IMG/VR virus record: IMGVR_UViG_3300027747_002400
Location: 1 to 27,063 of that record
Strand: one strand, 5' to 3'
Length of the DNA: 27,063 nucleotides
Origin: a virus
A program made the position numbers and the translations under genes. This document shows, in pieces, positions 6,774 through 25,729 of this stretch. How positions within the stretch are numbered: position 1 is the stretch's first letter; every line of letters begins with the position of its first letter. The notes beneath the pieces are model-generated. The model was not told the DNA's origin, did no database searches, and was given only the letters and a program-made list of their open reading frames with translations.

Positions 6774-7166
6774 ATGGCAAATTTAAATAACATATACTCC
6801 GACTTAGATTTAACCTTTAATAGGACACCTGTGACTAATGATGTCGCATTAAGCTATGACACGCAGTCGGTGGTTCGTGCAATAAGAAATCTTCTTACTA
6901 CTAGTTATTATGAAAGATTATTTCAACCAGGTATTGGTTCTAATGTAAATCAGTTATTGTTTGAACCTGTTGACCAGATAACTGCTTCTATTTTGGTGAA
7001 TGAAATAAAAACTACAATAAAAAATTATGATCCTAGAGTTTCTATAAATTTTGTTAATGTTTCAGTTTTACCAGATAATAATTCATATTCAGTATCCATT
7101 AGTCTTTTTATTGGAAATAATACAAGCGCAACAAATGTTAATCTAACACTTCAAAGGGCTAGATAA
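6774..7166 (+). CDS. gp25: Baseplate wedge protein gp25 (GPW/gp25 family)
   Basis: The 130-residue protein matches T4 gp25 (132 residues) in length and pattern. It has an N-terminal DLDLTFNRTPVTNDVALSYD, then VVRAIRNLLTTSYYERLFQP, GIGSNVNQLLFEP, and NYDPRVSINFVNVSV, where DPR replaces the usual EPR that binds the core of the wedge bundle. A final beta strand pair follows. gp25 nucleates the wedge core with gp6 and gp53 and links to the sheath. The gene begins a transcription unit at its own late promoter, lacks a clear Shine-Dalgarno, and overlaps gp6 by one base (TAATG). Confidence 0.93.
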   Translation: MANLNNIYSDLDLTFNRTPVTNDVALSYDTQSVVRAIRNLLTTSYYERLFQPGIGSNVNQLLFEPVDQITASILVNEIKTTIKNYDPRVSINFVNVSVLPDNNSYSVSISLFIGNNTSATNVNLTLQRAR

Positions 7167-9214
7167 TGGCTTCCAACACAAATATACAAATAGCCGAGCT
7201 AGATTTTACTAATATTAAATCTAACTTTATCAATTACTTAAAATCACAAGACACATTTAAAGATTACAACTTTTCTGGTTCAGCACTATCAGTTTTACTT
7301 GATGTTCTTGCATACAATACTCAATATAACGCCTATTATTTAAATATGGTGGCAAATGAGATGTTTTTGGATTCAGCAGTTCAAAGAAGTTCTGTTATTT
7401 CACACGCAAAATTATTAAATTACACACCACAATCAGCAATCGCTCCTACTGCCACTATTAATCTTGCATTAAGTGGCGTAACTTCCGCATCATATACTTT
7501 ACCTAAGTTTACTAATTTTATGTCTGAACCAATTAAAGGCGTAAACTATAATTTTGTTACAACAAATACAACAACAGTCAACACAATTAATAATGTAGCG
7601 TCATTCAATAATCTTGAAATTAAACAAGGTATACCCGCAACATACACTTATAGTGTTAATAGTGTTATTAATCCGACTTATACTTTTCAAATACCCGATG
7701 CAAACGTAGATACTTCAAGCGTTCAAGTAACTGTTCAACAATCTTCATCAAATACAAATTTTGTAGTATATACCGAAGCACAAAATTATCTATCTTTAAC
7801 GTCAAGTTCACCTGTATATTTCTTACAAGAAGCTACAAATGGTTATTACGAAATTTATTTTGGTGACGGAGCATTAGGAAATAAATTATCCGATGGTAAT
7901 ATTGTAGCAATTTCTTATATTGTAACTGACGGAACATCAGCATATAATGCAAATAATTTTTCTTTGATGACTTCTTTACCTGGTTACAGCACATATAGCA
8001 TTTTCCCTGTGACGGCCGCAAGTAGTGGTCAAAATAAAGAAACCATAGATTCAATTAAATTCCAAGCACCAAAGTCATATGCAGCGCAAGGACGTGCAGT
8101 TACAAAAGATGATTATATCACAGCATTACAAAAAAATACAGAAGGTCTTTCATTTGATGCTGTTAATGTATGGGGCGGTGAAGAAAATAACCCACCAGTA
8201 TACGGTATCATTTACATTGCAGCAAAGCCTTCAGGTGGATACGCTTTAACAGAAGCACAAAAACAAATTATTACAAATAATATTATTAATCCAATTTCTA
8301 TTTTAACTGTTACACCAAAAATTATTGATATTGATTATGTTTACTTATTGTTATCTGCAAATATTTTATATGATTCTAAAAAGTCAACATATTCTTCTTC
8401 ACAAATATCACAATTAGTAACACAAGGAACAATTAATTTTTGTAATAAATATTTAAATGATTTCAATTCAACTTTTATTATTAGTGATTTAATTTTATAC
8501 ATTAAGAGTCTAGACTATTCTATCGTTTCTGTTGATTTTGATTTATACTTACAAAAAAGATTTATACCTAATTTAAATTCAAGTCAAAATTACACAATTA
8601 ATTTTGGTAATCCAATTGAATTAGCAACAGGTAATAAACAACTTTCAATCACTCCTTCTTTTGCAACATATGATACTAAAGGTAATTATTACGATAATGT
8701 ATACTTAGAGCCTGCACCAGATTCAACCACAAATCTTGATACAATTACATTAGTTTCAGGAGGTTCAGGTTATACCGCTCCACAAGTTTTCATATCTGGT
8801 GATGGTAATGGTGCTACTGCTACCGCAACGGTAGTTCAAGGTGTTATCACCGGCATCACCGTAATATCAGGTGGTTCAGGTTTTACACAAGTAACTGTTA
8901 TTATTTCTGACCCAACAGGTTCTGGTGCTGTAGCTCAAGGTACTTTAAGAGGAAATTATGGTAACTTAAGAAGCTATTATTTCTCAAATGGCGTTAAGAA
9001 TATTTTAAATTCAAACGCAGGTTATGTAGATTATGATACTGGTGAAATAACATTAACAAATTTTAATCCGACATTAGTAAATAATACAGATGGTATAATG
9101 AGATTTAATGCTTTTGCTAAAAAAAGGATAGTTTCTTCATCTTACGATAAACTAATTACTTTAGATTCAAAAGATTCATCGTCAGTTTCCGTTAACTTAA
9201 CAACAATAAACTAA
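7166..9214 (+). CDS. gp6: Baseplate wedge protein gp6
   Basis: At 682 residues it is close to T4 gp6 (660). The N-terminus has FTNIKSNFINYLKSQDTFKD, SALSVLLDVLAYNTQYNAYY and the MVANEMFLDSAVQRSSVISH helix. Residues about 220-240 give YYEIYFGDGALGNKLSDGN, the conserved gp6/gpJ signature. KFQAPKSYAAQGRAVTKDDY then GIIYIAAKPSGGYALT follow, all as in gp6. Residues 527-594 are an extra Gly-rich module (VSGGSGY, then ISGGSGF) not found in T4 gp6. gp6 dimers form the continuous ring that holds the wedges together. The start overlaps the gp25 stop by one base. Confidence 0.93.
   Translation: MASNTNIQIAELDFTNIKSNFINYLKSQDTFKDYNFSGSALSVLLDVLAYNTQYNAYYLNMVANEMFLDSAVQRSSVISHAKLLNYTPQSAIAPTATINLALSGVTSASYTLPKFTNFMSEPIKGVNYNFVTTNTTTVNTINNVASFNNLEIKQGIPATYTYSVNSVINPTYTFQIPDANVDTSSVQVTVQQSSSNTNFVVYTEAQNYLSLTSSSPVYFLQEATNGYYEIYFGDGALGNKLSDGNIVAISYIVTDGTSAYNANNFSLMTSLPGYSTYSIFPVTAASSGQNKETIDSIKFQAPKSYAAQGRAVTKDDYITALQKNTEGLSFDAVNVWGGEENNPPVYGIIYIAAKPSGGYALTEAQKQIITNNIINPISILTVTPKIIDIDYVYLLLSANILYDSKKSTYSSSQISQLVTQGTINFCNKYLNDFNSTFIISDLILYIKSLDYSIVSVDFDLYLQKRFIPNLNSSQNYTINFGNPIELATGNKQLSITPSFATYDTKGNYYDNVYLEPAPDSTTNLDTITLVSGGSGYTAPQVFISGDGNGATATATVVQGVITGITVISGGSGFTQVTVIISDPTGSGAVAQGTLRGNYGNLRSYYFSNGVKNILNSNAGYVDYDTGEITLTNFNPTLVNNTDGIMRFNAFAKKRIVSSSYDKLITLDSKDSSSVSVNLTTIN
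8744..8947 (+). repeat. GSGY beta-module in gp6 (two units)
   Basis: Residues 527-594 of gp6 contain two copies of a roughly 30-residue unit. Each starts I-T-x-[LI/VI]-x-S-G-G-S-G-[YF] and runs through a VxISxxxGxGA-type strand. The first copy has SGGSGYTAPQVFISGDGNGA and the second ISGGSGFTQVTVIISDPTGS. The same unit occurs in three other baseplate genes of this window. Confidence 0.75.
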
Positions 9215-9221
9215 AAACTTA

Positions 9222-12011
9222 ATGTCTTACATTACCAAAACTTCGTTATTAGTTCCAACACAATTACCAAAATTCATTTCAGAAAACGGTGATTATCAAA
9301 CTTTTGTTTTGTTTTTACAAGCATACTATGATTGGATGGAACAACAAGGTGGCGCAATCTATGGTTCAAAAAATATACCTAATTATTTTGATATTGATAA
9401 TACATTAGAAGATTTTTTAAAATACTATCGTGATGAATTTTTAACTTTTTTTCCTAGTAATGCTTTTGTAGACCAAAGAAAATTAACAAAAATTGCAAAA
9501 GAATTATACCAAGCAAAAGGCAATGCATCATCATTTAAATTTTTGTTTCGTGTTCTTTATAATACTGATGTTGAATTATATAATTCTAAAGATTATGTTT
9601 TACGAGCATCTGATGGTAAATGGACCGTAACAAGGTCATTAACATTAGCGACAAATGACCCTACTTGGTTAAATTCAATTGGTTATAAATTATTCGGACA
9701 AACATCAAAAGGTTATTGTACAATTGAAAATGTAATTATTGGTACAACAAGTATACAAATTATTCTTTCAAATATACAAAGAGATTTTATTTCAGGTGAA
9801 TTTGTTACGGTTGTTGATGTAAATAATAATTCTGTTTTATTTAATAATTCAATTTTAAGTGCACAAATTCTAGGTGAATTATCAGGTGTAATAGTAGACC
9901 CTGCGAATAACGGCACAAATTATAGTGTAGGTGACCCCGTTGTATTTTTCGGTGGTTTAAATCCAAACAAAGCAAATGCGATTGGTGCTTCGGCATATGT
10001 CTCACAGGTAACTGGTGCAAGTATTACAAAATTAACACCGACATACCGTGGCCAAGGTTACCGACCAGGTGGTTTTACAACTGTCTCAATTATTTCAGGT
10101 TCAGGAACTGGTTCAAATGCGGCCGCAATTGCAACAACTTTTGATGCCAATACTTATACGATTCGTCTGGTAAATACAGATACAATTTTACCTCATGCAC
10201 CAATTTTATTATCTTCTAGTAATTATCAATTTGCTAATTTAGTAAATGCAAATGCTAATACAAAGTTATCCGAAGCATTATCTTTCCCTATATTAACTAC
10301 TTATGGTATTGCATCTGCAACGGTTACCTCTGGTGGTTCTGGTTATGATTCAACAACTTATGCTAATGCTACCGGTTATTATGCAACAGATTCTTCAACA
10401 TTACAATCATTACCTAATGTTGGTATATTAGCTCCAATTACAATTCTTTCTGGTGGTTCAAATTACGCAATTAATGACCGAATCGTTTTTAGTAAAGATG
10501 TACCTGGTTTAGGTGCTTATGCTAATGTTACATCGGTTAGTGGAACAGGTGCAATCACAAGTATAACATATGTTTCTGATCCCGAGAAAAAAATTGTAGC
10601 TCCTTTAGGTGGTATGGGTTATAGATATGGTATACCTACTGTTACTGTAAATTCCTCAGCAGGAACAGGAGCATCAATCGTTATACCTGGCCTAGTAGGA
10701 GGTGATGCACTATTTAATGTAACTTCAACATCATCAGGACAACTTTTAGAAATTACAATTACAAATCCAGGTCAAGATTATGTTTCAGCACCAGGCGTTT
10801 CATTACGAGTAGAAGATTTATTGGTATACAATGTTAATTCTTCTAATCCTCCTAAAAAAGGTGATGTGATATATCAAGGCACTTTAAGTGGTTCTACCTT
10901 TACTGCAAATGTAGATAGTATTGCAATATATTCAGCAAATACAACTAATCCGTTCAACAGTAATTATAATTTAAGAGTATATAACTATAATGGACTATTA
11001 AATTTAGCAAACAATATTTACATAGCAAGAAATGGCGTAGATATAGGTGCAAATTTACAAATGTCAAACACGACATCAGGAATTTACACACAAGGTAGAA
11101 AGATATACGGTAACGGAGCAGCTAAAGCTACAGCCAAATTTATAAATAAAATTCTTTTGGGTTCAGGTTTTTACCAAAATTCAGATGGTCATCCATCAGC
11201 ATATTCTGTATTGGAAAATGAAAACTATAATAATTACTCTTACATTTTACAATTAGAAAAAGCACTATCAAGTTATAAAGATTCGGCATTAGCGTTCTTG
11301 CATCCGTTAGGATTGAAATATAACACCTATAACTTATTAAAAAATAATAAATCTTTTAATACACAAAATACACAAATAGAATCAAAAGAGTATTCAATTA
11401 GCCCATTAAGTTATTATATAGAAAACAGTCTTTATATTGCAAACATTTCTCCTACATTAGCAAATACCATTGTTTTTAGTAATATATCAGGCGCAAATAT
11501 TGCTGAAGTTTTATTACCAAATTCTACGATAACAATTACACCAAAAACTGGCCATACTTTCTATTCAAAAGTAATTTCTTCCACCGCAAATACAGTTACC
11601 ATGGAAGATAATTGGACAACAACCGTACCAAATGTTGCAATAGCCACAGCGGCCGCAGGTTCTTCTCTTATAAATATCAATACATTAACAAATGCTTGGA
11701 ATATAGCAACCGGTAATATTATTTCTAGAGTTAGTGATTTTATTAATATTTACGATAGTGTTTCATTTGATGGTGTAACATTTAAACAAGTCACTCATGT
11801 AGACCAACCAAATGATGGTTCTACTGGCTTAACGATACTAGTTAATAGTTCATATGGCACACCTCAATCTGGTTATTTGACATTAACTAAGAATGTTATA
11901 TCAAGTAATGTTCTTGTTGGTGGTGTTACTGTTTTACCACAAGTAATTGTTTTATATGCAGAAAATAACGATGTTTTAATAACAGAAGATGGTTCACAAT
12001 TCGTACTATAG
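9222..12011 (+). CDS. Baseplate wedge protein in gp7 position, with Gly-rich repeat modules
   Basis: The 929-residue protein directly follows gp6, where T4 has gp7 (1032 residues). Residues 1-140 are a well-ordered helical domain: LPKFISENGDYQTFVLFLQA, YYDWMEQQGGA, LEDFLKYYRDEFLTFFP, KELYQAKGNASSFKFLFRVL and VLRASDGKWTV. That domain is familiar from structural proteins of T4-like aquatic phages. Residues 222-533 contain several GSGY-type units. A second helical block around 680-710 (LQLEKALSSYKDSALAFLHP) precedes a Thr/Asn-rich beta C-terminus. gp7 in T4 links the inner wedge core to gp8 and gp10. The identity with gp7 rests on position and size; I see no direct sequence match. The gene starts 7 bases after the gp6 stop, without a clear Shine-Dalgarno. 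Confidence 0.82.
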   Translation: MSYITKTSLLVPTQLPKFISENGDYQTFVLFLQAYYDWMEQQGGAIYGSKNIPNYFDIDNTLEDFLKYYRDEFLTFFPSNAFVDQRKLTKIAKELYQAKGNASSFKFLFRVLYNTDVELYNSKDYVLRASDGKWTVTRSLTLATNDPTWLNSIGYKLFGQTSKGYCTIENVIIGTTSIQIILSNIQRDFISGEFVTVVDVNNNSVLFNNSILSAQILGELSGVIVDPANNGTNYSVGDPVVFFGGLNPNKANAIGASAYVSQVTGASITKLTPTYRGQGYRPGGFTTVSIISGSGTGSNAAAIATTFDANTYTIRLVNTDTILPHAPILLSSSNYQFANLVNANANTKLSEALSFPILTTYGIASATVTSGGSGYDSTTYANATGYYATDSSTLQSLPNVGILAPITILSGGSNYAINDRIVFSKDVPGLGAYANVTSVSGTGAITSITYVSDPEKKIVAPLGGMGYRYGIPTVTVNSSAGTGASIVIPGLVGGDALFNVTSTSSGQLLEITITNPGQDYVSAPGVSLRVEDLLVYNVNSSNPPKKGDVIYQGTLSGSTFTANVDSIAIYSANTTNPFNSNYNLRVYNYNGLLNLANNIYIARNGVDIGANLQMSNTTSGIYTQGRKIYGNGAAKATAKFINKILLGSGFYQNSDGHPSAYSVLENENYNNYSYILQLEKALSSYKDSALAFLHPLGLKYNTYNLLKNNKSFNTQNTQIESKEYSISPLSYYIENSLYIANISPTLANTIVFSNISGANIAEVLLPNSTITITPKTGHTFYSKVISSTANTVTMEDNWTTTVPNVAIATAAAGSSLININTLTNAWNIATGNIISRVSDFINIYDSVSFDGVTFKQVTHVDQPNDGSTGLTILVNSSYGTPQSGYLTLTKNVISSNVLVGGVTVLPQVIVLYAENNDVLITEDGSQFVL
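9885..10820 (+). repeat. GSGY-type repeat region in the gp7-position protein
   Basis: Residues 222-533 contain at least five divergent copies of the Gly-rich beta unit. Markers in order are PANNGTNYSVGDPVVF, YRGQGYRPGG, VTSGGSGYDS, ILSGGSNYAINDRIVF, LGGMGYRYGIPTVTV and ITNPGQDYVSAPGVSL. Two copies carry an [NS]Y-x-[VI]-x-D-x-[VI]-V-F variant. Exact unit borders were judged by eye. Confidence 0.65.
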
Positions 12012-12021
12012 GAAAAAGTAA

Positions 12022-13926
12022 ATGAGTTATGTAAAAATTTCAGGATTGCCTGCAAGTTCAAATTTAAATAGTAATCCAGCACAATCTATTTTTCCTACTG
12101 TGGATTTAACATTAGGACAAACGACTAAAATTTCAGCACAGGCTTTAGGTAATTCTTTATATTCAAATAATACTTTAATTGTTGGTACAGGTGGTGTGCT
12201 ACTTCCTAATACTGTGGCACAATTTACAGGTCTTTCAGGTAAATATGCACAAGTTTCAGCACAAAATTTAAATGCGGCAGGTTCTATTGACTATATCTCA
12301 ACGGCAGATGTGGGTACGGACACTTCATATTATTTGGACATGGGTTTAAATAACTCAACATTTAATGATTCGACATTTACTGTGGCAAAAGCACTTGATG
12401 GTTATTTGTATGTTCAAGGAGGACTTGCTGGGCAAACTGCTAATTTGGCAATTGGTGTTGCAACTGCCAATTCAAATGTTAACTTTTTTGCTGGCGGTAC
12501 ATTATCACAGAATATTATAATGAGTATAAATTCTAGTGGCGTATCTATTACAAAATCATTAAATGTTTCAAGTAATGGTATTACTTTTTCTGACGGCACT
12601 ACATTATATTCAAATACTTCTATTCAGTCTGCATACAATCAAGCAAACTTAGCCAACTCTATTGCAAATACGGCAGTTCAAAATACAGCAACCATTCAAT
12701 TACAAACACTAAGACTTTCTGGTAATTTGATTGCAAATACACCAGGTCAAAGCATTTCTGTTGATAGAATTACTTCCAATACAGCAACATTTAATCAAAA
12801 TTTAGTGGTTCTTGGCAACTTAACAGCGAACACTTTATTAGGTAATGTTTTCTTTTCTAATGTAGTTACAACAACTTCACAGTCCAATTCAATTCTTTGG
12901 ACGACACAAGCAGGCGCAATTGCACAACAAACAGCACAGTTATGGTATTATTCTAATACGCAATCATTGATTTTAGATACCGATATTCCTGGTGATAGAC
13001 TTTCAATTTCTAAAGTTCTTTTCTTCCGTGCATTTAATAGCACTGGAGCAACAATTCCTATTAATTCATTTGTTCGTTTAGTACCGGGTGTTACTGCAAA
13101 TCAAATTCCTTATATTGCTTTGGCAGATGCAACTAATTCAGCAAATGCAACAGTTGCTGGTTTTGTTAAAAATGCAATTGCAAATTCGGCATATGGTTTT
13201 GCATACTCACAAGGTATTGTTGAAGATTTCAATACAACAAGTTTTGGTGCGAATGGTGATATTTTATTCTTATCAACAACACCAGGTCAATCATCAAATG
13301 TGGCACCATTGTCAGGAAATTCAAATACTGTTGTTCAATTAGGTAAAGTTATTCTAAGTGACGCAACTCAAGGTAAGTTGTTTATTAAAAACGAATTAAG
13401 AGAAGCGTATGGTCGTACCAATGGTTCTTTATTATATGCTTTTGCCAACAATATCACAGCAAGTAATACAGTTAGTATTAATGATTCCACACAAACATTA
13501 ACTTCAAATAATATTATTGCAAATACAATTACTGTTTCTGGTAATATATCAGCAAATACAATTATTGCAAATACTTTTGTCTATGGTTCTGCTACTGCTA
13601 ATGGAATGGTTACACAGTTAACAAGTAAATCTACGGCAGTTACATCCAATGGTATTACTGGACAAATTACAACGAATAATGCTGCATTAGCTGGTCAAGC
13701 ATATGTCACATTCACAGTTAATAATAGTTATGTTAAACACAGTAATGATATTATTATTCTAAATGTTCAAAATTCAGTAACAACTCCAAATCCATATCTT
13801 GTTGGTGTTGGTAATGTTTCTGTTGGTAGTTTTAATGTTACAGTATATAATGTTGATTCTGGTGGTGGTTCATCTCACTCAGACGCTATTGTATTGAATT
13901 ATGCAGTAATGAGAGTCGGAAATTAA
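12022..13926 (+). CDS. Tail fibre-like virion protein between gp7-position gene and gp8
   Basis: The 634-residue protein is rich in Asn, Thr, Ser and Ala and has the look of a fibrous phage appendage. N-terminal VKISGLPASS is followed by IDYISTADVGTDTSYYLDMG and DGYLYVQGG, a segment common in phage fibre and appendage proteins. The middle (residues about 185-285) has repeated short beta units such as SLNVSSNGITFSDGTTLYSN and VLGNLTANTLLGNVF. A later part (about 290-470) looks globular, and the C-terminus ends in beta strands. Shine-Dalgarno AGGAAAAAG (12010-12018) supports the start. T4 has no fibre gene between 7 and 8, so this is an insertion relative to T4. It may decorate the wedge or be a short fibre. 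No enzymatic motif was seen. Confidence 0.8.
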   Translation: MSYVKISGLPASSNLNSNPAQSIFPTVDLTLGQTTKISAQALGNSLYSNNTLIVGTGGVLLPNTVAQFTGLSGKYAQVSAQNLNAAGSIDYISTADVGTDTSYYLDMGLNNSTFNDSTFTVAKALDGYLYVQGGLAGQTANLAIGVATANSNVNFFAGGTLSQNIIMSINSSGVSITKSLNVSSNGITFSDGTTLYSNTSIQSAYNQANLANSIANTAVQNTATIQLQTLRLSGNLIANTPGQSISVDRITSNTATFNQNLVVLGNLTANTLLGNVFFSNVVTTTSQSNSILWTTQAGAIAQQTAQLWYYSNTQSLILDTDIPGDRLSISKVLFFRAFNSTGATIPINSFVRLVPGVTANQIPYIALADATNSANATVAGFVKNAIANSAYGFAYSQGIVEDFNTTSFGANGDILFLSTTPGQSSNVAPLSGNSNTVVQLGKVILSDATQGKLFIKNELREAYGRTNGSLLYAFANNITASNTVSINDSTQTLTSNNIIANTITVSGNISANTIIANTFVYGSATANGMVTQLTSKSTAVTSNGITGQITTNNAALAGQAYVTFTVNNSYVKHSNDIIILNVQNSVTTPNPYLVGVGNVSVGSFNVTVYNVDSGGGSSHSDAIVLNYAVMRVGN

Positions 13927-13928
13927 CG

Positions 13929-13936
13929 AATAAATA
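13929..13936 (+). promoter_or_regulatory. Late promoter-like octamer AATAAATA before gp8
   Basis: AATAAATA fits the looser NATAAATA form of the late octamer described for T4-like cyanophages. It begins exactly 12 bases before the gp8 ATG at 13941, the same spacing as before gp25 and before the fibre gene at 26473. It lies in a 14-base gap that otherwise contains no Shine-Dalgarno. Confidence 0.5.
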
Positions 13937-13940
13937 AACT

Positions 13941-15278
13941 ATGGCAAATACAGTAAACGGATTATTAACAACTTACGGTTCGGTTGTACAGGTACAACTG
14001 AATTATCTCAAACAGTCCAGTTCATTCTTTTTTATTGGAAAAGTTGATGCTTGGCCGGATGATTTAAATCCAGAATCGCCTAGTCAAACACAATCATATA
14101 TCAAAAAAGCATTTAAAAATGTGTTTGCAGCAAAAGCTTTATCGTCTGCAAATTTTTCTCCTGTTGTTCCTCGTATTGATTGGATAAAAGGAAATGTTTA
14201 TGTTCCTTATTCTGATTATACCGATGTTCTGGCGGTTGATTCAAATGGTGTAATTATTTCACAATTCTATGTTCGTAATAATTATGACCAAATTTTTAAA
14301 TGTTTATCAAATAATAAAGGTGTTCCTTCTACCGTTCAGCCATTATTACAAGCAGGTACAACAGATGTAACACAAACACTATATTTGGCCGATGGGTATA
14401 AGTGGATTTATGTAACAACCATAGATAAAGGTTTAAAGAAAGACTTCTTTGATAACAATTGGATGCCTATATCATTTGGTAGTTCCACACCTAATCCTCT
14501 TTTACCTGCAAAAATGGGTTCTATCAATGCAATCAATGTTACCAATTCAGGAAATAACTACAGTAACGGTTACTCAACAACAACAGTAACAATTGGTGGT
14601 GATGGTACAGGCGCAACAGCCCAAGCAAATGTATTTAATAATATTGTGCAAGATGTTCTTGTAACAAATACAGGAAATAATTATACTTACGCAACAGTTA
14701 CAATTGCACCGGTATCAGGATTATCAGGTTCTGGTGCTACTGCTAACGTCATTGTTTCCCCTGTTGGAGGTCATGCTTCCGACCCCGTTTCAGAGTTAGG
14801 TTGTAATCATGTTATGATAAGTGCAGAGTTTGATGAATCAGAATCAGGTAATGTTCCTACAAATATTAGTTATCGCCAATTAGGAATTATTACAAATCCA
14901 ATTTTAAAAACAGGAATTGCACCTACATCAACACTATATAATACAAGTGATTTAGCAACGGTATCATACGGTTTAGGAACATTTACATCAGGCGAAACAG
15001 TTTTTCAAGGTTCAACTTTATCATCCGCCACATTTAAGGCAACTTGTTGTTCATTTGATACTTCAAACAATATTATTTCGCTGATAAATACACAAGGCAC
15101 ATATACTTTAGGAAGTTCATTAACAGGAAATTCTTCTGGTATTTCAAGAGTTTTGTTAACTTATTCACCAACATCTTGGTCCGTTGGTTCAGGTTATATG
15201 AGTTATTTGGAAAACAGAATACCAGTTCAGCGTTCAGCAAATGGTAATGAACAATTTAGATTAGTTTTAAGATTTTAA
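13941..15278 (+). CDS. gp8: Baseplate wedge protein gp8 with an inserted Gly-rich module
   Basis: The protein has 445 residues against 334 for T4 gp8. Matching parts are FFFIGKVDAWPDD, VVPRIDWIKGNVYVPYSDYT, the FYVRNNYDQIFKCLSNN segment, LADGYKWIYVTTI, ISYRQLGIITNPIL, and the C-terminal GYMSYLENRIPVQRS and FRLVLRF. T4 gp8 has the equivalents WGDTRYPDP, GYVWEYLFEI, FRQISIITNPL, YMENRPPI and INILFTF. Most of the extra length is residues 195-277, a two-unit GSGY-type module (VTNSGNNYSNGY, VTNTGNNYTYATVTI, SGSGATANV). A further part near 320-390 is Thr/Ser rich. gp8 dimers connect gp7 and gp10 in the T4 wedge. Confidence 0.9.
   Translation: MANTVNGLLTTYGSVVQVQLNYLKQSSSFFFIGKVDAWPDDLNPESPSQTQSYIKKAFKNVFAAKALSSANFSPVVPRIDWIKGNVYVPYSDYTDVLAVDSNGVIISQFYVRNNYDQIFKCLSNNKGVPSTVQPLLQAGTTDVTQTLYLADGYKWIYVTTIDKGLKKDFFDNNWMPISFGSSTPNPLLPAKMGSINAINVTNSGNNYSNGYSTTTVTIGGDGTGATAQANVFNNIVQDVLVTNTGNNYTYATVTIAPVSGLSGSGATANVIVSPVGGHASDPVSELGCNHVMISAEFDESESGNVPTNISYRQLGIITNPILKTGIAPTSTLYNTSDLATVSYGLGTFTSGETVFQGSTLSSATFKATCCSFDTSNNIISLINTQGTYTLGSSLTGNSSGISRVLLTYSPTSWSVGSGYMSYLENRIPVQRSANGNEQFRLVLRF
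14523..14771 (+). repeat. GSGY-type module inserted in gp8 (two units)
   Basis: Residues 195-277 hold two units, INVTNSGNNYSNGY with VTIGGDGTGATAQA, then VLVTNTGNNYTYATVTIAP with LSGSGATANVIV. T4 gp8 has nothing like it, and it is flanked on both sides by sequence that matches gp8. Confidence 0.7.
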
Positions 15279-15322
15279 AAACGATTATTAAATATCCAAG
15301 CAATACTTAGGAAAATAGCACA

Positions 15323-18300
15323 ATGATAAATTATAATACTTCGCCATATTTTGACGATTTCAATCCAGAAAATAATTACCACAGAATTTTATTTAAACCT
15401 GGTAATGCAGTGCAGGCGAGAGAATTAACACAATCTCAGACTATTCTCCAAAATCAAATTTCTCAATTTGCATCTTCAATTTATTCACAAAACACTCCTG
15501 TTTCTGGTGGTCAAGTAACTACAAATTTAAAATGTAATTATATTAAATTAAATGTGGCATTTGGCGGTTCTTCAATTATTTCTTCAAATTATTTAAATCA
15601 ATTAATTACTGATGCAACAGGAACAATAGTAGCAAGAGTTATTGCAACAGCAGAAGCAACTGGTACTGCAGTAACTGCTGGCGACCCACCAACTTTAATT
15701 GTAACTTATTTGTCAGGTTTACAATTTTCTGATGGTCAAACTTTATATGTTATAAATGCAACTTCTACTGTTCCATTTGCCACAACGATTGGTACATCAG
15801 GAGGCACAACATCGGTTGGTCTTTCTTCTGTTGTTTCTATTGCCGCTGGTGTTTTTTGGGTAATTAACGGATATAATACAGTAACAAATACAGATGGTAC
15901 AACATCACAATATTCAATTGGTAATTTTGTTAATGTTTTACCACAAACTATTATACTTGACAAATATGATAATGTACCATCCTTAAGAGTAGGTTTAGGA
16001 ATCAATGAAACTACAGTAACTAGTGCAGACGATTCGTCCCTATTGGATCCCGCAACTGGCGCATCAAACTATCAAGCACCAGGTGCTGACCGTTATCGTA
16101 TTACTTTAAATCTACAGACACTTCCTGACACTTATGGTAATGATGATACTTTCATTCAATTATTAACTATTAATAATGGTGTTATTCAAAAACAGGTAGA
16201 TAGTACAATATATTCCACAATTGATGATTACCTATCTAAGAGAACAAAAGAAACAAATGGCGATTTTATTGTTTCTGATTTTAATTTTTCACCAAAAAGT
16301 AACACAGCAAATTCAGCATTGTATGATATCAATATTGGTCCCGGTATTGCTTATATTGATGGTAAACGATTAGAAAATCAATCAAATTATATAATTACAA
16401 ACAGTAGAGCAAGAACCACAGCAACACAAAATACTAATGCTGTAACTGTGGATTATGGTAATTTTTTCTATGTTGATACATTAAATGGTGTATTGGATGT
16501 AACAAGAGGTTCGCCTGTTGATTTACATTCCGTACCATTAGCTAATATTGTTTCAACAAATACGACAACTTATTCGTCATCATTAGTAGGTAAAGGTTAT
16601 ATTCGTAATTTAATTTATGTAACCAACACTTCAGATACAAATACAAACTCATATATTTACAAAGCATTTGTTTATGATATTACCGCAAATACTTTAACGA
16701 GTAATTCAACATCAAATAGTACATTATCTTCAGTTCAAGTATATGATACAACAGGTAAATTTTCTGGTTCAGCAAACGCTTATAATTATTCGGTTATAAC
16801 AATTGATTCTGGTTTAGGAACAGGTTATTCTGGTACAATTACATCATGGAATGCAACGACAAAAACTGCTACAGTAAATCCAAACTTTCCTGTTATTCCT
16901 ACATCCACTTCAAATGTTTCTATTCGTTTAGGTACACAATCTATCCAAACAATAGCGAACACAAATGGCACAACAACAATCTTAGCGTCAGCAAATATTA
17001 ATCCATTGAGTAAATATGGTGGTATTCCAACATCATATACTGTATATCAAAATCTTGGTTGGCCAGAATTAGTCTATAAATTAGGAAGTGATTTCGTTAG
17101 TAATTTAGATACCGCTTCTTATTATTCCACACAAGTATTTCGTGGTGTTGGTTTCTCTGTTGCCGGTGCAACTTCAACAAGAACAGTTACTTTGGATAGT
17201 TCAATACAAGGATACTTATCATTTACAGCAGGCGTAAGTGGTACAGTACCTTCTTCTATCGTAAAACAAAATTTTATTGTAATTAACACATCAACAGGTA
17301 GCGTTGTAGATTTAGTAACATCAGGTAATACAGTAAGTATTTCTGGTAAGTCTGCAACATTTACGGTGAATAATCAAAGTTTATCAAACGCTACAATTTT
17401 TGCTAAAGTAACTATTAATGATGCAGGTTCATCATCATCACCATTCTTAAGAACAAAAACATTAGTTAATGCAAATACAACGGTTGTTTCTTATGCTGGT
17501 CCTGATGGTATTATTAATTCAAATACATATGTTGATTTAACAAATTCACAAGTTTACATTAAAAATGTGGCGTTACTAGGTACAGGACAACCACAATTAT
17601 TATATGTAACTGACGTTAAGAATATTGTAAAAATTATTGATACTGGTTCTACTGCAACAGTACCAACAATTTCTATGTTGTCTAGTTCTGCTTATGATGT
17701 TACAAATAATTTCTTGTTTGTAAATGGTCAACAAGATTCACACTATGATTATTCTTATATTCAGTTAGCCTCTGGTGCTCCTCGTCCAAAAGGAAATTTG
17801 TTGGTTCTATTCAACTTCTACAAGCACAACTTAGGCACAGGTTACTTCAGCTATATGTCGTATAAAAATAGCGGAGAGAATTATGGTTCTATACCTACTT
17901 ACACTTCTAAATCTGGTACAACATATAACTTGCGTGACTGTTTAGACTTTAGACCAACATTAAAAAATGGTGTATCTGGTTATATTTTTGAATATGCTGC
18001 CGATCCAATATCAAGTGGATTTACAGGCACATATATTCCGGAAGATTTAACAAATTTTATAAGTAATTATTCTTGGTATTTGCCTCGCAATGATAAACTT
18101 GTTCTTACTAAAGATAAATCTTTCCAAGTCATTCAAGGTAATCCAGCAATTAATCCGACACTTCCTGTTACACCTCCGGGTTCTTTGTTGTTGGCTAATC
18201 TTTATCATACACCATACACTTCATATTTACCTAGTGAAGCGCCAACAGGCACACTACCAAACTTGTCTTTAGAAACAGTTCAACACCGCCGTTGGACCAT

Positions 18301-21300
18301 GTCAGATATTTCCAATTTACAAACACAAGTAAATAATATTGAATATTATACAACATTAAATGTATTGGAACAATCTGCATCTAACTTACAAGTTACAGAC
18401 AACAATGGTTTAAATAGATTTAAAAATGGTATACTCGTTGATGACTTTAGTTCTTATGGTACAGCAGATAGTGGTAATCCTGATTTCTCTGCATCTATTG
18501 ACCGTGTAAGTAAACAAATGTCTGCTTCACAAGTTGTAAAAAATTATCCACTACAATCAGCTTACCAAGTTAGTTCTTTAGGTAATATGGACGCAACTGT
18601 TCAATCTACTTTAGGTTATACAGTCAATACAATTAGTAAAGGTACAAATTATTACTCTTTACCTTATTCAGTTTCGCCTATCATTACACAAAGATTAGCA
18701 AGTAATACCGTTAACTTAAATCCATTCTCTGCTCCAGTATTTCAAGGATTCTGTAGTTTAAATCCTCCGATGGATAATTGGGTAGATAATACAAAAGCGC
18801 CTGATTTATTATTGGTGGATCCAAATTTACAAGTTTACCAGCAATCAGATACACTAAATGTTTTAAATGTTACTAACTGGCAAACAATACCTGGTTCACA
18901 GTATTCAACTACCGGCGACACAACATATACAATTGGTCACGATATTAATCCTAGTCCTTATGGTATTGTAGGTTATTCATCAACGCAGACAAATACTTAC
19001 GCTAGCCAAACATCAAAAACAACTTTAGGCTATTGGAGTAATCTAGGTTCATCATATAATCAAAATAATGGTTTTATTACTGATGTTTCTATACAACCAT
19101 ATATTAGACAACAACAAGTAATATTCCGTGCAAAAGGCCTAAAAGTAAACACACCAGTTAAGGCTTGGTTTGATGGTGTAAGTGTTGACAAATATATTGT
19201 TGCTCCTAATATTATTGAATTGAATAACCTTAAAGGAACATTTGAAGAAGATGATGTCATAGGTTTTTATGACACAGTAAGGAATGGTTTTTATCCTATA
19301 GGTACAGTTGTTGCAACATATAATTACGCCAATACTAATAATATTCGTTTGTATATTACAGGAGATTTCCATAGTTCATATACAGCAAATACAAATATTA
19401 TTTCAAATGCAAAATATGATACAAACGGAAATTATGTAGCGAACACAGCCTACGGAACAGCAGGCAATCAAAGAATTATTTCTCTGAATACCTCGGGTTA
19501 TGTTTCTTCGGTCGGTGGTTCATTTTCTGACGCAAACAATGTAACCATTACTGGTATCTACGCAAGTCAAAAATATATCGCTTCGCAGTTTTCAAATCTA
19601 TATGGCATTTGGAATTCCGCTACTAGTTATTATGGAACAATATGGCAAGGTATTCAAACAACAAATAATATACCTTCAACATTTGATGCTGCATTCAATG
19701 TAAACTTTCCGTCATCAGGCTACTACTATTTCGGTGGTGATTCACCTTATAACGCATCGTTTTACTTAGATAATGTTTTACAATTTACTGCTAGTGGAAA
19801 TAATCCTCAATTTCCAAGTGCAATTTATGTCTCTGCAGGTATTCATAAGATAAGAATTTATTGTAATAATCCTAATTCTGCCACCGATTTCAATTTAAAT
19901 GCTTTGGTAGCTTTAGCAATTTCTACCGCACCATTTGCATCTGACGGTACAACGGCAGGAACATTAGTATTTTCTTCTCTTAATCCTCCTGTCATTCCTA
20001 CTAACTCAGGAACACAAGTTGGTATGCCAGGTGGTGGTGTATATTATGTTGGCGCTACACAGGTTGCTTTAAATCCAATGGCACAAAATTCAGATAATTT
20101 TTATGTTGGCGCTAAAATTAATATTACAACAACATTTATTTCACAACCACTATTGTCTGGTTCGCAACTTGCGTATGGCGTCAATTATCAACCAAAAATA
20201 CAAACATCAGTTTACACAGCAACAATTACAGCTTATGATGGCGCATCAAGAATCGCTACTTTAAATACACCAGTAAATGTATCATTAGGAAATAATGGTT
20301 ACATAGGTGGCATAGTAACTTCCACTTATTCAATTCAAGGAACAAACACAAGTTATTTAATTTCCGTAAACGGTTCTTCTAATACGGCACCTTCGTTATC
20401 AACGAATGAAAATGGTGATTTCTCTGGCGTATTTAATATTCCACAAAATACATTTAAAACAGGTTCTAGAATATTCCGTATTGATAATAGAACAGTTGCA
20501 ACAGACGGTGGTGCATCTGCATCCACATGGGCAGAAGCAACATACACAGCATCAGGTTTATCAACAAAGTCACAAGCAATTAATTTTTCTCCTAGTATTA
20601 GTTCTGCTAAAAATACATTTACTAGAACGCAATATCAAGATAATGTTTTAGTTAATTCTGCTATAGTTCTTAATCCTTGGGATCCTGTAGCACAAAGTTT
20701 TATTATTGATCCTGCAACATATCCAAATGGAGCATTTTTAACATCTGTTAAATTTTTCTTCCAAAGTAAACCTACAACAAGTAATATTCCAGTTGAATTA
20801 TCTATTGTAGGAACTTCAAACGGTTATCCAAATGGCGAGACATTAGATAACTCTTTAGTCAATTTAACAGCAGATAAGGTTAATGTTTCTAACTCGCCTA
20901 ATATTTTAGATGCATCAACCTATACTGAATTTAATTTCCCAGCACCAGTTTATATTAAACCAGGTACTTTATATGCATTTATCGTCCATAGTGCATCAAA
21001 TGATTACGAAATCTATCTAGCAAAACAAGGTGGCACAGCAATACCATCTACAGTTAAGAACTTGCCTACTGATCCTACACCGACATCTATTACTAAAATT
21101 GGAACATCTCCATATGTTGCTTCGTTGTTTATATCACAAAATGCAATTACATGGACGGCAGACCAAACAGCAGCATTAATGTTTAGTGTTAATTCGGCAA
21201 AATTTGATACTACAAAAAATCCTACTATTCAATTTGTTATTCCCAAAAACTTACCAACTCGTAAGTTGATGACACAAGATATTCAAAAGTTTTATGGTTC

Positions 21301-22372
21301 TGGATTAGTAAATAATTTCCAAGGCATCTTTACAAATACTGATGTTACTTCTCACGCATTTAACTTAACTACAACAGATTTAATACCAACAAATACAAAA
21401 GTTAATTATACATACCAAGGTTTAATTGGTTCAACAAGTTCATTTGATGTTCAAAAATCTGTTGTACCTGGAAAATACGGTTCACCAACATACGATAACA
21501 TTTATTTGAGTGACAATAAAGGTCCAAGATTATTACAAGCAAATAGTTCTGCTACGTTTTCAATGTATGCTTCATTGAGTTCTACTGATACAAATATGTC
21601 TCCGTTTATCTCAGATGATGGAACTAGTTTATATAACATTCAATGGAATATTAATAATCTAAGTCTTTCAAATGGTATTATTTCTTTAGTATCTGGTGGT
21701 TCAGGTTACTACAATGCAAATACAATTAGCGTATCCGTTTCAGCACCAACAGCGGCAAATGGTGGTATTCAAGCGGTCGCTGGTTTTACTGCTAACACAA
21801 CATCTGGCACAATTCAGTCCGTTTACATTACTAATCCAGGTTCTGGTTATTTAAATACGCCTACGATTACAATTAGTGATGCAAATACGACACCAGGAAC
21901 TGGCGCCAATGTTGTATGTTCTTCTGAATTCTCACCAAGTGGTGGTAATGCGGCTACTCGTTATATAACAAAGAAAAATAAATTATCATTAACAAATACT
22001 TCAAAGGATTTACGAGTATATTTTTCTGCTTATCGTCCTATTGGCACAAATATCTATGTGTTTTATCGTGTTCAAAATAGTAGTTTAGACAATGCCTTAT
22101 TTGAAAATGGTCCATGGCAGTTAATGACTTTTATTCAGAACACAGCAAATGGTTATTCAACAGACCGAACAAATGCATATGAGTTTATTTGTGCACCAGG
22201 CGTTAACGGTACAGCAAATAATCAGTTAACATATACAAGCACATCGGGTACAACATATGCTTCGTTTGATACTTTTGCTATTAAGATTGTGATGACCACT
22301 AATGATAATACTTTTGTTCCTTTCTTAACTAATTTGAGAGTTCTTGCATTACCATCAGGAACAGGAATTTAA
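15323..22372 (+). CDS. Giant baseplate/tail-fibre protein (DUF4815-like N-terminus)
   Basis: The 2349-residue protein begins YNTSPYFDDFNPENNYHRIL then FKPGNAVQARELTQSQTILQ, the characteristic start of large virion proteins with a DUF4815-type domain. Around residues 840-880 it has YMSYKNSGENYG and LRDCLDFRPTLKNG. Residues about 1380-1535 resemble a PA14-like beta sandwich (YYFGGDSPYNASFYLDNVL, SAGIHKIRIYCNN), which would suit sugar binding. Residues about 1786-1965 have DPVAQSFIIDP, FLTSVKFFFQSKP and GTLYAFIVHSAS, a module common in such proteins. Residues 2120-2199 are a GSGY pair. Its place after gp8 is where T4 has gp9-gp10, so it may be the outer wedge and fibre attachment protein. Shine-Dalgarno AGGA lies at 15309-15312. 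The 44-base gap before it has no other feature. Domain names are from memory, not a search. Confidence 0.85.
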   Translation: MINYNTSPYFDDFNPENNYHRILFKPGNAVQARELTQSQTILQNQISQFASSIYSQNTPVSGGQVTTNLKCNYIKLNVAFGGSSIISSNYLNQLITDATGTIVARVIATAEATGTAVTAGDPPTLIVTYLSGLQFSDGQTLYVINATSTVPFATTIGTSGGTTSVGLSSVVSIAAGVFWVINGYNTVTNTDGTTSQYSIGNFVNVLPQTIILDKYDNVPSLRVGLGINETTVTSADDSSLLDPATGASNYQAPGADRYRITLNLQTLPDTYGNDDTFIQLLTINNGVIQKQVDSTIYSTIDDYLSKRTKETNGDFIVSDFNFSPKSNTANSALYDINIGPGIAYIDGKRLENQSNYIITNSRARTTATQNTNAVTVDYGNFFYVDTLNGVLDVTRGSPVDLHSVPLANIVSTNTTTYSSSLVGKGYIRNLIYVTNTSDTNTNSYIYKAFVYDITANTLTSNSTSNSTLSSVQVYDTTGKFSGSANAYNYSVITIDSGLGTGYSGTITSWNATTKTATVNPNFPVIPTSTSNVSIRLGTQSIQTIANTNGTTTILASANINPLSKYGGIPTSYTVYQNLGWPELVYKLGSDFVSNLDTASYYSTQVFRGVGFSVAGATSTRTVTLDSSIQGYLSFTAGVSGTVPSSIVKQNFIVINTSTGSVVDLVTSGNTVSISGKSATFTVNNQSLSNATIFAKVTINDAGSSSSPFLRTKTLVNANTTVVSYAGPDGIINSNTYVDLTNSQVYIKNVALLGTGQPQLLYVTDVKNIVKIIDTGSTATVPTISMLSSSAYDVTNNFLFVNGQQDSHYDYSYIQLASGAPRPKGNLLVLFNFYKHNLGTGYFSYMSYKNSGENYGSIPTYTSKSGTTYNLRDCLDFRPTLKNGVSGYIFEYAADPISSGFTGTYIPEDLTNFISNYSWYLPRNDKLVLTKDKSFQVIQGNPAINPTLPVTPPGSLLLANLYHTPYTSYLPSEAPTGTLPNLSLETVQHRRWTMSDISNLQTQVNNIEYYTTLNVLEQSASNLQVTDNNGLNRFKNGILVDDFSSYGTADSGNPDFSASIDRVSKQMSASQVVKNYPLQSAYQVSSLGNMDATVQSTLGYTVNTISKGTNYYSLPYSVSPIITQRLASNTVNLNPFSAPVFQGFCSLNPPMDNWVDNTKAPDLLLVDPNLQVYQQSDTLNVLNVTNWQTIPGSQYSTTGDTTYTIGHDINPSPYGIVGYSSTQTNTYASQTSKTTLGYWSNLGSSYNQNNGFITDVSIQPYIRQQQVIFRAKGLKVNTPVKAWFDGVSVDKYIVAPNIIELNNLKGTFEEDDVIGFYDTVRNGFYPIGTVVATYNYANTNNIRLYITGDFHSSYTANTNIISNAKYDTNGNYVANTAYGTAGNQRIISLNTSGYVSSVGGSFSDANNVTITGIYASQKYIASQFSNLYGIWNSATSYYGTIWQGIQTTNNIPSTFDAAFNVNFPSSGYYYFGGDSPYNASFYLDNVLQFTASGNNPQFPSAIYVSAGIHKIRIYCNNPNSATDFNLNALVALAISTAPFASDGTTAGTLVFSSLNPPVIPTNSGTQVGMPGGGVYYVGATQVALNPMAQNSDNFYVGAKINITTTFISQPLLSGSQLAYGVNYQPKIQTSVYTATITAYDGASRIATLNTPVNVSLGNNGYIGGIVTSTYSIQGTNTSYLISVNGSSNTAPSLSTNENGDFSGVFNIPQNTFKTGSRIFRIDNRTVATDGGASASTWAEATYTASGLSTKSQAINFSPSISSAKNTFTRTQYQDNVLVNSAIVLNPWDPVAQSFIIDPATYPNGAFLTSVKFFFQSKPTTSNIPVELSIVGTSNGYPNGETLDNSLVNLTADKVNVSNSPNILDASTYTEFNFPAPVYIKPGTLYAFIVHSASNDYEIYLAKQGGTAIPSTVKNLPTDPTPTSITKIGTSPYVASLFISQNAITWTADQTAALMFSVNSAKFDTTKNPTIQFVIPKNLPTRKLMTQDIQKFYGSGLVNNFQGIFTNTDVTSHAFNLTTTDLIPTNTKVNYTYQGLIGSTSSFDVQKSVVPGKYGSPTYDNIYLSDNKGPRLLQANSSATFSMYASLSSTDTNMSPFISDDGTSLYNIQWNINNLSLSNGIISLVSGGSGYYNANTISVSVSAPTAANGGIQAVAGFTANTTSGTIQSVYITNPGSGYLNTPTITISDANTTPGTGANVVCSSEFSPSGGNAATRYITKKNKLSLTNTSKDLRVYFSAYRPIGTNIYVFYRVQNSSLDNALFENGPWQLMTFIQNTANGYSTDRTNAYEFICAPGVNGTANNQLTYTSTSGTTYASFDTFAIKIVMTTNDNTFVPFLTNLRVLALPSGTGI
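21680..21919 (+). repeat. GSGY module near the C-terminus of the giant protein
   Basis: Residues 2120-2199 hold two units, ISLVSGGSGYYNANTISVSV and VYITNPGSGYLNTPTITISD followed by GTGANVV. This is the fourth gene in the window to carry the module. Confidence 0.7.
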
Positions 22373-22373
22373 T

Positions 22374-22601
22374 ATGGCTTTAGTTCAAGTAACAGGTACA
22401 CCTTTTGTTAGAGATACTGATTCAATGGTATTGAGCAATGTAGATTCGGTCGCAAGAGAAGAATATTATAATAAAGTTCGGATACTAACGAACCAAAAAG
22501 AGCAACTAAATAAAGTAAATGAAGAAATTAATCAATTGAAAGATGACGTAAGTGAAATCAAAAGTCTTTTAAAACAACTAATTAATACGAATAATCAATA
22601 A
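22374..22601 (+). CDS. Small coiled-coil virion-associated protein
   Basis: I take the ATG at 22374, one base after the giant gene's stop; an upstream in-frame ATG lies inside that gene. The 75-residue product starts MALVQVTGTPFVRDTDSMVL. It continues with SVAREEYYNKVRILTNQKEQ and a heptad-patterned helix (LNKVNEEINQLKDDVSEIKS). The charged, leucine/isoleucine-spaced C-terminal half should form a coiled coil. Similar short proteins are common next to the large structural genes of T4-like aquatic phages and have no assigned role, to my knowledge. It may help to trimerise or attach the neighbouring fibres. The last base of its stop is the first base of the next ATG (TAATG). Confidence 0.8.
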   Translation: MALVQVTGTPFVRDTDSMVLSNVDSVAREEYYNKVRILTNQKEQLNKVNEEINQLKDDVSEIKSLLKQLINTNNQ

Positions 22602-23383
22602 TGTCCAATACAATATCAGCTCTTAGTTACGCAAACACCTTTGGTGATTGGGTAATAACAACTCAAGGTATTACAAATGAAGTTAATAATTTAGGTAAAA
22701 GCCAATATACAAAGGATGCTGGTACTTTAGTTATTAATTCATCTGGTATTGGTTTACAAGTATCAAACAATTCATTATTTACAGGTAATGTAGTTATTTC
22801 CGGTTCAGGTCAAGCATTACAAGTAACAAAAGATGCTATTATTTCTGGTAATCTGACTGTATTAGGTACATCACTATTATATGGCCAAGAAATTGATTTA
22901 TCAGATATCACAAGTAATACACTCCATGTAAATACATCTACACTAAATGTAGCTAGTATCAATACTGCAACAATAAATGTAGCAACTGTTAATATAATAA
23001 CAATTAATACTGCCACGATAAATGTAGCAACCATTAATATAGCTACCATAAATACAGCTACTATTAATATAGCCACGGTAAATACTGCCACGATAAATGT
23101 AGCAACCATTAATATAGCTACCATAAATACAGCTACTATTAATATAGCCACGGTAAATACTGCAACAATAAATGTATCAACGATTAATACATCAACAATA
23201 AATGTAGCGACCATTAATACAGCAAGTATAAATATATCAACGGTGAATACTTCAAATGTTTTAGGTTCAGAAACTATTGGTGGTAATTTAACATTAACAG
23301 GTAATTTTACAGGTGCTGGTGCAAATAGTTTTGCGGCATCATTAACGGCAACCGCACTTGCTTTTTCAGTTGCCTTAGGATAA
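22601..23383 (+). CDS. Tail fibre-like protein with pentapeptide repeats
   Basis: The 260-residue protein has three parts. Residues 1-108 are a beta-rich head typical of fibre-like virion proteins of T4-like phages (ANTFGDWVITTQGITNEVNN, VISGSGQALQVT, ISGNLTVLGTSLL). Residues 109-218 are 22 consecutive five-residue units of the form [TS]-[IV]-N-x-[AS], mostly TINVA, TINIA, TINTA and TVNTA. Residues 219-260 are a Gly/Ala-rich cap (GGNLTLTGNFTGAGANSF). In register A-T-I-N-x, the Ile or Val takes the inward place of a pentapeptide-repeat beta-helix, so a rigid right-handed solenoid is likely. Pentapeptide proteins usually prefer Leu or Phe at that place, so this is a variant. It overlaps the preceding gene by one base. 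An antisense open frame through the repeat is a by-product of its regularity. Confidence 0.85.
   Translation: MSNTISALSYANTFGDWVITTQGITNEVNNLGKSQYTKDAGTLVINSSGIGLQVSNNSLFTGNVVISGSGQALQVTKDAIISGNLTVLGTSLLYGQEIDLSDITSNTLHVNTSTLNVASINTATINVATVNIITINTATINVATINIATINTATINIATVNTATINVATINIATINTATINIATVNTATINVSTINTSTINVATINTASINISTVNTSNVLGSETIGGNLTLTGNFTGAGANSFAASLTATALAFSVALG
22925..23254 (+). repeat. 15-bp coding repeat, 22 units (pentapeptide array)
   Basis: Twenty-two in-frame 15-base units encode residues 109-218 of the fibre-like protein. Units alternate codon choices (acg/acc/aca/act for Thr, ata/att for Ile, gca/gct/gcc for Ala). Most are therefore diverged at DNA level, apart from the perfect 75-bp duplication inside. 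Confidence 0.9.
23011..23160 (+). repeat. Perfect 75-bp tandem duplication within the pentapeptide array
   Basis: Bases 23011-23085 are repeated without a mismatch at 23086-23160, with five further identical bases on the left. The copy is five pentapeptide units (25 residues), so the frame is kept. Neighbouring units differ at synonymous positions, which marks this as a recent event. Confidence 0.92.
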
Positions 23384-24598: not shown

Positions 24599-25729
24599 AT
24601 GGCGCTAATATATGACGGTACAAACGGTTTAACATTTAATGATGGCACTCAAATATCAAGTGTCAATCAGGTAGGTATTCGTAATCGTATTATCAATGGT
24701 GATATGCGTATTGACCAAAGAAATGCTGGATCAACAGTAACTTTTGGATCCGGAAGCGTTGATGCTTATGTTGTTGACCGTTTCAAAGGCAGTAAAAGTA
24801 GCACAGGTACCTTTACTCTTGTACAATCTAGTATTGCACCACCGGGTTTTACAAAAAGTTTATTATTTACGGTTACTGGAACTGAGGCTTCATTAGCTTC
24901 AAGTTCTTATTATGATATAATCCAATACATTGAAGGTTATAATATTGGTGATTTAGATTGGGGCCTATCAACAGCTAAAACTGTTACTTTATCATTTTGG
25001 GTTCGCTCGAGCGTCACTGGAACTTATTCATATGAATTAAGAAATGCTTCAGCAAACAGAAGTATTACTTATAACTATACAATTAACGCCGCAAACACTT
25101 GGCAACAAATAACACAAACAATACCCGGCGATACTACAGGCACATGGGCAACAGATGGTGGTATAGGTATTGGTTTGTTATTTCCTTTAGCTAGCGGATC
25201 ATCGTTCACAACAAGTAATATTGGCACATGGCAAGCAGGAAATTACAATGCATCAACAAGTGCAATTAATTTAATGGCAACAAACGGTGCAACATTCTAC
25301 ATCACCGGTGTGCAATTAGAGAAAGGCTCTGTGGCCACTCCGTTTGATTTTAGATTTTATGGTAAAGAACTTTTGTTGTGTCAGAGATATTTCTTAAAAA
25401 CTTTTCCACAAGGAACTGCTCCTGCTCAAAATGCTGGTACTCTTGGCACTGCTTTAGTTTGGTCATCATCGGGAGCTAATAGTACTTTTGGAACACAAGT
25501 ACAATGGAGATTTCCCGTAACAATGAGAACAGCACCAACAGCCATTTACTACAATCCATCAGCAGCAAATGCTAATGCAAGAAATTATGCTATAAGTTCT
25601 GATATGGTATTAGGTTCATCTCCAGCTACTGGTCCTGGAGATTCATCCTTACAATTTGTTTCTAATGATACTGCTTCATCAGCAGGACATTGTTGTTTTA
25701 TTCATGTGACAGCTTCAGCGGAGTTATAA
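24599..25729 (+). CDS. Tail fibre / receptor-binding protein (NRIINGDM type)
   Basis: The 376-residue protein starts with a short N-terminal module MALIYDGTNGLTFNDGTQIS, nearly the same as in the gene at 25898. It then has RNRIINGDMRIDQRNAGSTV, VDRFKGSK, IQYIEGYNIGDLDWG, KTVTLSFWVRSSVTGTYSYE and FYITGVQLEKGSVATPF, followed by FRFYGKELLLCQRYFLKTF. This body is a beta-sandwich domain resembling carbohydrate-binding modules and is common in phage receptor-binding proteins. The C-terminal 100 residues are a separate, more variable tip ending HCCFIHVTASAEL. It is directly followed, after one base, by a 55-residue chaperone-like gene. The partial gene at the right edge is a paralogue of its body. 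AAGG at 24588-24591, overlapping the previous stop, may serve as ribosome binding site. Confidence 0.85.
   Translation: MALIYDGTNGLTFNDGTQISSVNQVGIRNRIINGDMRIDQRNAGSTVTFGSGSVDAYVVDRFKGSKSSTGTFTLVQSSIAPPGFTKSLLFTVTGTEASLASSSYYDIIQYIEGYNIGDLDWGLSTAKTVTLSFWVRSSVTGTYSYELRNASANRSITYNYTINAANTWQQITQTIPGDTTGTWATDGGIGIGLLFPLASGSSFTTSNIGTWQAGNYNASTSAINLMATNGATFYITGVQLEKGSVATPFDFRFYGKELLLCQRYFLKTFPQGTAPAQNAGTLGTALVWSSSGANSTFGTQVQWRFPVTMRTAPTAIYYNPSAANANARNYAISSDMVLGSSPATGPGDSSLQFVSNDTASSAGHCCFIHVTASAEL

Follow-up and report, generated by a model that had tools for sequence, protein, structure and literature searches.

A homologous beta module with the predicted fold of T4 gp18 domain I recurs in otherwise unrelated baseplate-region proteins of a T4-like phage

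Domain I of the phage T4 tail sheath protein gp18 (PF22639; PDB 3FO8, 3FOA) is a six-stranded barrel plus a helix that protrudes without making sheath-sheath contact; it binds the baseplate and the retracted long fibres, and three point mutations in this domain prevent the fibres from retracting (PMC3004832). The wedge of the T4 baseplate contains two gp6 and two gp8 chains (PMC3004832). Phage Ig-like accessory domains are also small beta domains found in unrelated virion proteins, where they are thought to be exposed and accessory (PMC9230969). Here we compare with these systems a Gly-rich module, named after its GSGY signature, that occurs in several proteins of an uncultivated phage fragment.

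The window, that is, the whole 27,063-nucleotide stretch of DNA analysed, is a fragment of a T4-like phage, with Kyanoviridae the nearest among named phages. Its genes run in the order gp25, gp6, gp7-position protein, a 634-residue ORF, gp8, a giant DUF4815 protein, and fibre-like genes; no tail sheath gene was seen within the 27 kb. The gp6 protein (gene 7166-9214) belongs to the T4 gp6 baseplate wedge family (PF21379, E 1.7e-20; phrog_219, E 5.6e-147) and shares 41% identity with gp6 of Methylophilales phage Melnitz-3 and ~34% with gp6 of Synechococcus phage S-RIM2. Closer gp6 relatives are found on many IMG/VR contigs, of which 80, with 49-65% identity in gp6, were kept. The gp8 protein (gene 13941-15278) belongs to the T4 gp8 baseplate wedge family (PF09215, E 1.6e-6), and its model matches 1n7z at Z 16.7.

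Several other ORFs of the window were also inspected. Positions 200-637 on the minus strand encode a protein with a TnsA-like endonuclease fold, assigned to the head closure family phrog_218 (T4 gp4-like head completion protein). A 260-residue ORF at 22601-23383 consists mostly of 5-residue repeats (ATIN/VATVN type) with a 15-base period in ~18 copies; it perhaps encodes a beta-solenoid fibre, Pfam gave no match, and PHROG gave weak matches to families of unknown function. The opposite-strand ORF 22810-23214 is a shadow of this repeat. The fibre-like ORFs 24599-25729 and ~26474-27063, the second cut by the end of the window, have the motif RIINGxMxIDQRNxG in common and therefore look like paralogues; the first matches the tail fibre family phrog_4492.

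The first-pass annotation reported GSGY units in gp6, the gp7-position protein, gp8, and the giant protein, and they were found in these places, all on the plus strand. In gp6, the module covers 8738-8953 (units 525-559 and 560-596; unit HMM 33.5 and 27.8 bits), and in gp8 it covers 14523-14762 (units 195-234 and 235-274; 27.0 and 34.3 bits). The giant protein (gene 15323-22372) carries units 2118-2162, which is weak, and 2163-2203 at 21674-21931; the module profile also matched giant proteins in two relatives, in frames of 2085 and 2360 residues. Inspection of the gp7-position protein (gene 9222-12011) disclosed about six divergent units within residues 220-533, namely 220-265 (GTNYSVGD type) and 266-307 at 9879-10142, and 363-405, 405-444, 445-493, and 508-533 at 10308-10820.

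Homologues of each protein were gathered separately, and profiles were made from the module region only. The gp6 module-region family profile found the window gp8 (E 1.2e-14) as well as 27 gp8 proteins and 20 gp7 relatives (E<1e-3), and the gp8 profile found the window gp6 (E 4.6e-12). Alignment of the gp6 and gp8 module families with hhalign gave a probability of 99.4% (E 1.6e-21, 72 columns). A single-unit HMM trained on gp6 and gp8 alone found residues 2165-2200 of the giant protein (E 4.2e-4), with the first unit of that protein marginal at 2.2 bits, and it also found 11 gp7-family members (E<1e-3, best 9.5e-9) and gp8 of phage C48C1. The S-RIM2 giant gene adjoining gp6, a partial frame of 4806 residues, contained ~16 matches to this HMM, several of them sub-significant. 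Among reversed and shuffled proteins of the same composition, the best E was 0.4. The window's own gp7 gave no match to the gp6+gp8 unit profile; its units are too divergent for it, and so the gp7 link rests on the gp7 family and on the Pfam model of sheath domain I. These profiles, the hhalign comparison, and the AlphaFold models described below support the first-pass reading in this respect: proteins that are otherwise unrelated share a single module, which is homologous among them and is predicted to fold separately.

AlphaFold predicted the gp6 module alone, from a 44-sequence alignment, to be a six-stranded domain (mean pLDDT 94.9, pTM 0.80), and the module region of the full gp8 model (mean pLDDT 79.8) has six strands as well, with block pLDDT ~83-90. 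Using the VIA aligner, we matched the gp6 module to T4 gp18 domain I (3fo8 residues 99-188; Z 6.4, rmsd 2.8, 72/78 residues), which was the sole solved match above Z 3, the next unrelated chain appearing at Z 2.9. The full gp8 model independently matched the same domain through residues 196-272/274 (Z 5.4 to 6.1). VIA listed only two further chains, an antibody Fab (Z 2.9) and a flagellar hook cap (Z 2.1), and both were discounted for their low Z. Plain Foldseek of the module against the PDB gave no significant match, and the module profile, run against the sequences of solved structures, matched none up to E 10. Among predicted viral structures, the module was matched at query-normalised TM ~0.8 to 0.93 in wedge, hub/lysozyme, P22 gp10-like, and beta-helix proteins. 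As modelled, the module appears to adopt the fold of T4 gp18 residues 98-188; the moderate Z of 6.4, within the range where a shared common arrangement is possible, indicates likeness and is not proof of ancestry.

A link to domain I was also seen in sequence. The T4-type domain I sequence (TISTPGSNYAVGDKITV...EGKITEVDADGKIKKINIPT) follows the motif order of the GSGY module, the order common to both being G-S-N-Y...VGD-I-V...G-x-I. In a longer reading (TISTPGSNYAVGDKITVKY...EGKITEVDADGKIKKINIPT...GSNWTAEI), the GSGY motif followed by the strand pattern of the module occurs twice, plus a helix, which fits the published six-stranded barrel plus helix (PMC3004832). GSGY windows from the alignments of the four proteins outscored other windows against the domain I profile (p 2e-4; reversed 0.86); gp7 windows 201-285 ranked high, and the best window by hhalign was gp7 401-485, at 88.6%. 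Only gp7 units reached this value, direct hhalign of the gp6 or gp8 modules against gp18 domain I being weak (probability 2-4%). The Pfam model Gp18_dom_I matched residues 406-460 of the window gp7 (E 0.0018, or 2.9e-5 for one genome) at 18.6 bits, below the 27-bit curated cut-off, and the module is therefore not filed as a member of PF22639; the gp6, gp8, and giant-protein modules gave no match to this model. The weak gp6 and gp8 alignments mean that the gp18 link rests on the fold plus gp7-type intermediates, and homology of the module to T4 gp18 domain I is likely, not proven.

The gp6 module cleanly interrupts a hairpin turn in the C-terminal part of the protein, with a strand before it and GNLRTYY after it; at this site the gp6 proteins of Melnitz-3 and S-RIM2 have a short DDG turn. 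The module is present in 80/80 IMG/VR relatives, at ~50% identity or more, and absent from 3/3 named Kyanoviridae gp6 tested (Melnitz-3, S-RIM2, and C48C1). For gp8, T4 gp8 matches the flanks but not the module region, while Kyanoviridae relatives, among them S-RIM2, Syn19, and P-SSM3, contain the module, as do 28/29 gp8 relatives with invariant residues, the lone exception being a 135-residue fragment. The first-pass description of both modules as extra relative to T4 therefore holds for gp8; for gp6, the insertion is clean relative to other Kyanoviridae, T4 gp6 being too divergent to give the exact site. The gp8 module, which T4 does not have, is older than the gp6 insertion.

A tree of module copies grouped them mostly by host gene. 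Of the gp6 copies, 70/78 fell in a clade with nothing else, and the eight-member subclade of the window formed another; since support between the two is low, the gp6 subclade to which the window belongs may have acquired the module a second time. Identity between gp6 and gp8 copies was 42.2% on the same contig and 41.9% on different contigs. Sharing a contig does not make the copies more similar, so nothing indicates recent exchange within a genome, and with the tree ordered mostly by host gene, a recent spread inside the genome was rejected. The grouping by host gene and the near-equal identities suggest that the insertions are old and were inherited with each gene.

The module is distributed widely beyond the window. 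Searches of whole records gave 19-22 module matches in S-RIM2, Syn19, and P-SSM3, 1-6 in other Kyanoviridae records and in phages of Sinorhizobium, Rhizobium, and Stenotrophomonas, and none in the T4-type phage, Salmonella PMBT18, or Vibrio K367 g2. In other phages, the carriers include neck, tail-sheath, hub/lysozyme, tail-fibre, and giant structural proteins, and the module was found in sixteen PHROG families. The gp18 of Stenotrophomonas phage Marzo (L098:1419-3392), a true tail sheath protein, has a GSGY module insert at residues ~238-319; by inspection its insertion point differs from that of T4 domain I, and it is apparently an independent insertion. A prophage-type sheath in Pseudovibrio also carries the module, again at a point other than that of T4 domain I. 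The earlier proposal of a spread within the baseplate gene set was hence both too narrow, in view of the neck, sheath, hub, fibre, and bacterial copies, and too recent, as gp6 and gp8 give no sign of exchange.

Bacterial genomes contributed 62 loci with the module, some of which are phage gp6, gp8, or sheath genes; the other bacterial carriers are beta-helix, lipocalin-like (CrtC), and Ig-rich surface proteins, in which the number of matches ranges from 2 to 12 or more. Nine bacterial-binned contigs encode phage gp6 and/or gp8 with the module and are probably mis-binned phage contigs or prophages. Five bacterial loci (Opitutia, Chloroflexi, and Verrucomicrobiae) encode proteins with 8-12 module units, and in the two of these proteins that were scanned, Ig-like, fn3, or Cu-oxidase domains accompany the units. 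When phages were searched by plain tblastn with the module or its consensus, no match was returned because the low-complexity filter masks the module, and 44 module sequences scanned against Pfam and NCBIfam yielded scattered weak matches only.

In our proposal, the GSGY module is a mobile beta domain of six strands that folds on its own; it is built of two ~37-residue beta-beta-beta units, has the fold of gp18 domain I, and is probably related to that domain. It would have been inserted once per host gene at tolerant places, the hairpin turn in gp6 and the ~195-275 segment of gp8 that is missing in T4 gp8, and then inherited with each gene. If the T4 stoichiometry holds, each baseplate would carry 24 module copies on gp6 and gp8, with more on the gp7-position and giant proteins. 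We suggest that these copies face outward as docking or decoration domains, making weak contacts between sheath and baseplate, between wedges, or with stowed fibres. The structural match to T4 gp18 domain I supports the analogy with an outward-facing surface domain; homology to that domain beyond mere likeness, surface exposure, and a docking function are inferred from these comparisons. Against docking stand the bacterial proteins with up to 12 or more matches, in which the module is not tied to phage tails. Taken as a whole, an explanation that combines a mobile gp18-domain-I-type module, inheritance by gene, and surface docking or decoration seems to us somewhat probable. More tentatively, GSGY and gp18-domain-I modules could all belong to a single, general type of mobile docking domain that sits on the sheath, neck, wedge, hub, and fibre proteins of tailed phages and holds neighbouring outer parts of the virion together, with T4 gp18 domain I as one surviving member in the T4 lineage; this extension is possible but rather doubtful.

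Two other roles would account for part of the data, and we consider both unlikely, to a similar degree. The module could be a passenger of nearly neutral effect or a spacer; being stable and soluble, it would be tolerated at surface turns and persist because it is harmless or fills space between wedges. This is consistent with its presence in a great number of unrelated proteins of phages and bacteria and with the lack of a conserved putative active site. However, some lineages should have lost a 75-residue insert that served no purpose, and the module is kept in 80/80 gp6 relatives and 28/29 gp8 relatives, with invariant residues. Weak sugar binding on the host surface, suggested in the first pass, could gain avidity from the many copies per virion, as proposed for phage Ig-like domains (a precedent cited in PMC9230969), and tail-fibre, endosialidase, and beta-helix proteins do carry the module. 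Nothing in the comparison points to this role, however: the columns that the families have in common consist of structural residues (glycines, one aromatic, and core hydrophobics, as G-x-Y, G-A, and hydrophobic strands), no aromatic or acidic binding cluster is conserved from gp6 through gp18, and the upper or inner position of gp6 and gp8 in the T4 baseplate is a poor place for receptor contact (PMC3004832). Since only structural residues are common across the families, sugar binding is a possible but unsupported function. Convergence, by which Gly/Ser/Thr-rich beta repeats without common ancestry would share only composition, might be suspected from the divergence of the gp7 units and from the low-complexity filter stripping the module entirely from BLAST, but it is highly improbable, given that the profiles reached E 1e-12 to 1e-14 while the reversed and shuffled controls stayed clean, and given the 99.4% hhalign probability between the gp6 and gp8 families; for the gp6 and gp8 copies it is already contradicted.

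Standard annotation overlooks the mobile docking or decoration module we favour, since low-complexity filtering hides it and neither Pfam nor NCBIfam has a model for it. Its positions show where the surface of conserved baseplate proteins tolerates insertions in abundant aquatic phages, and the module offers a possible origin for T4 gp18 domain I, which projects from the sheath and is known to take part in fibre retraction. Some PHROG families (phrog_438, 460, 701, 2885, 19630, 708, 1922, 4406, and 5342) already contain the module inside their whole-protein profiles, hence their matches to the gp6 module; these families describe whole proteins and not the module separately, and the gp6 family is not among the listed matches. 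Like phage Ig-like accessory domains, the module is a small beta domain in unrelated virion proteins, but it differs from them in its two beta-beta-beta units and its GSGY signature, and no Ig-type Pfam model was among its consistent matches; the outcome of the fold search is nevertheless compatible with an Ig fold. The closest known counterpart is T4 gp18 domain I, which has the same size, likewise has six strands, and is likewise inserted within another domain, protruding from the tail (PMC3004832). In contrast to the module, domain I has an extra helix between its halves and is without the GDG-TGA loop, and it resides in the T4 sheath, whereas the module described here resides in baseplate proteins.
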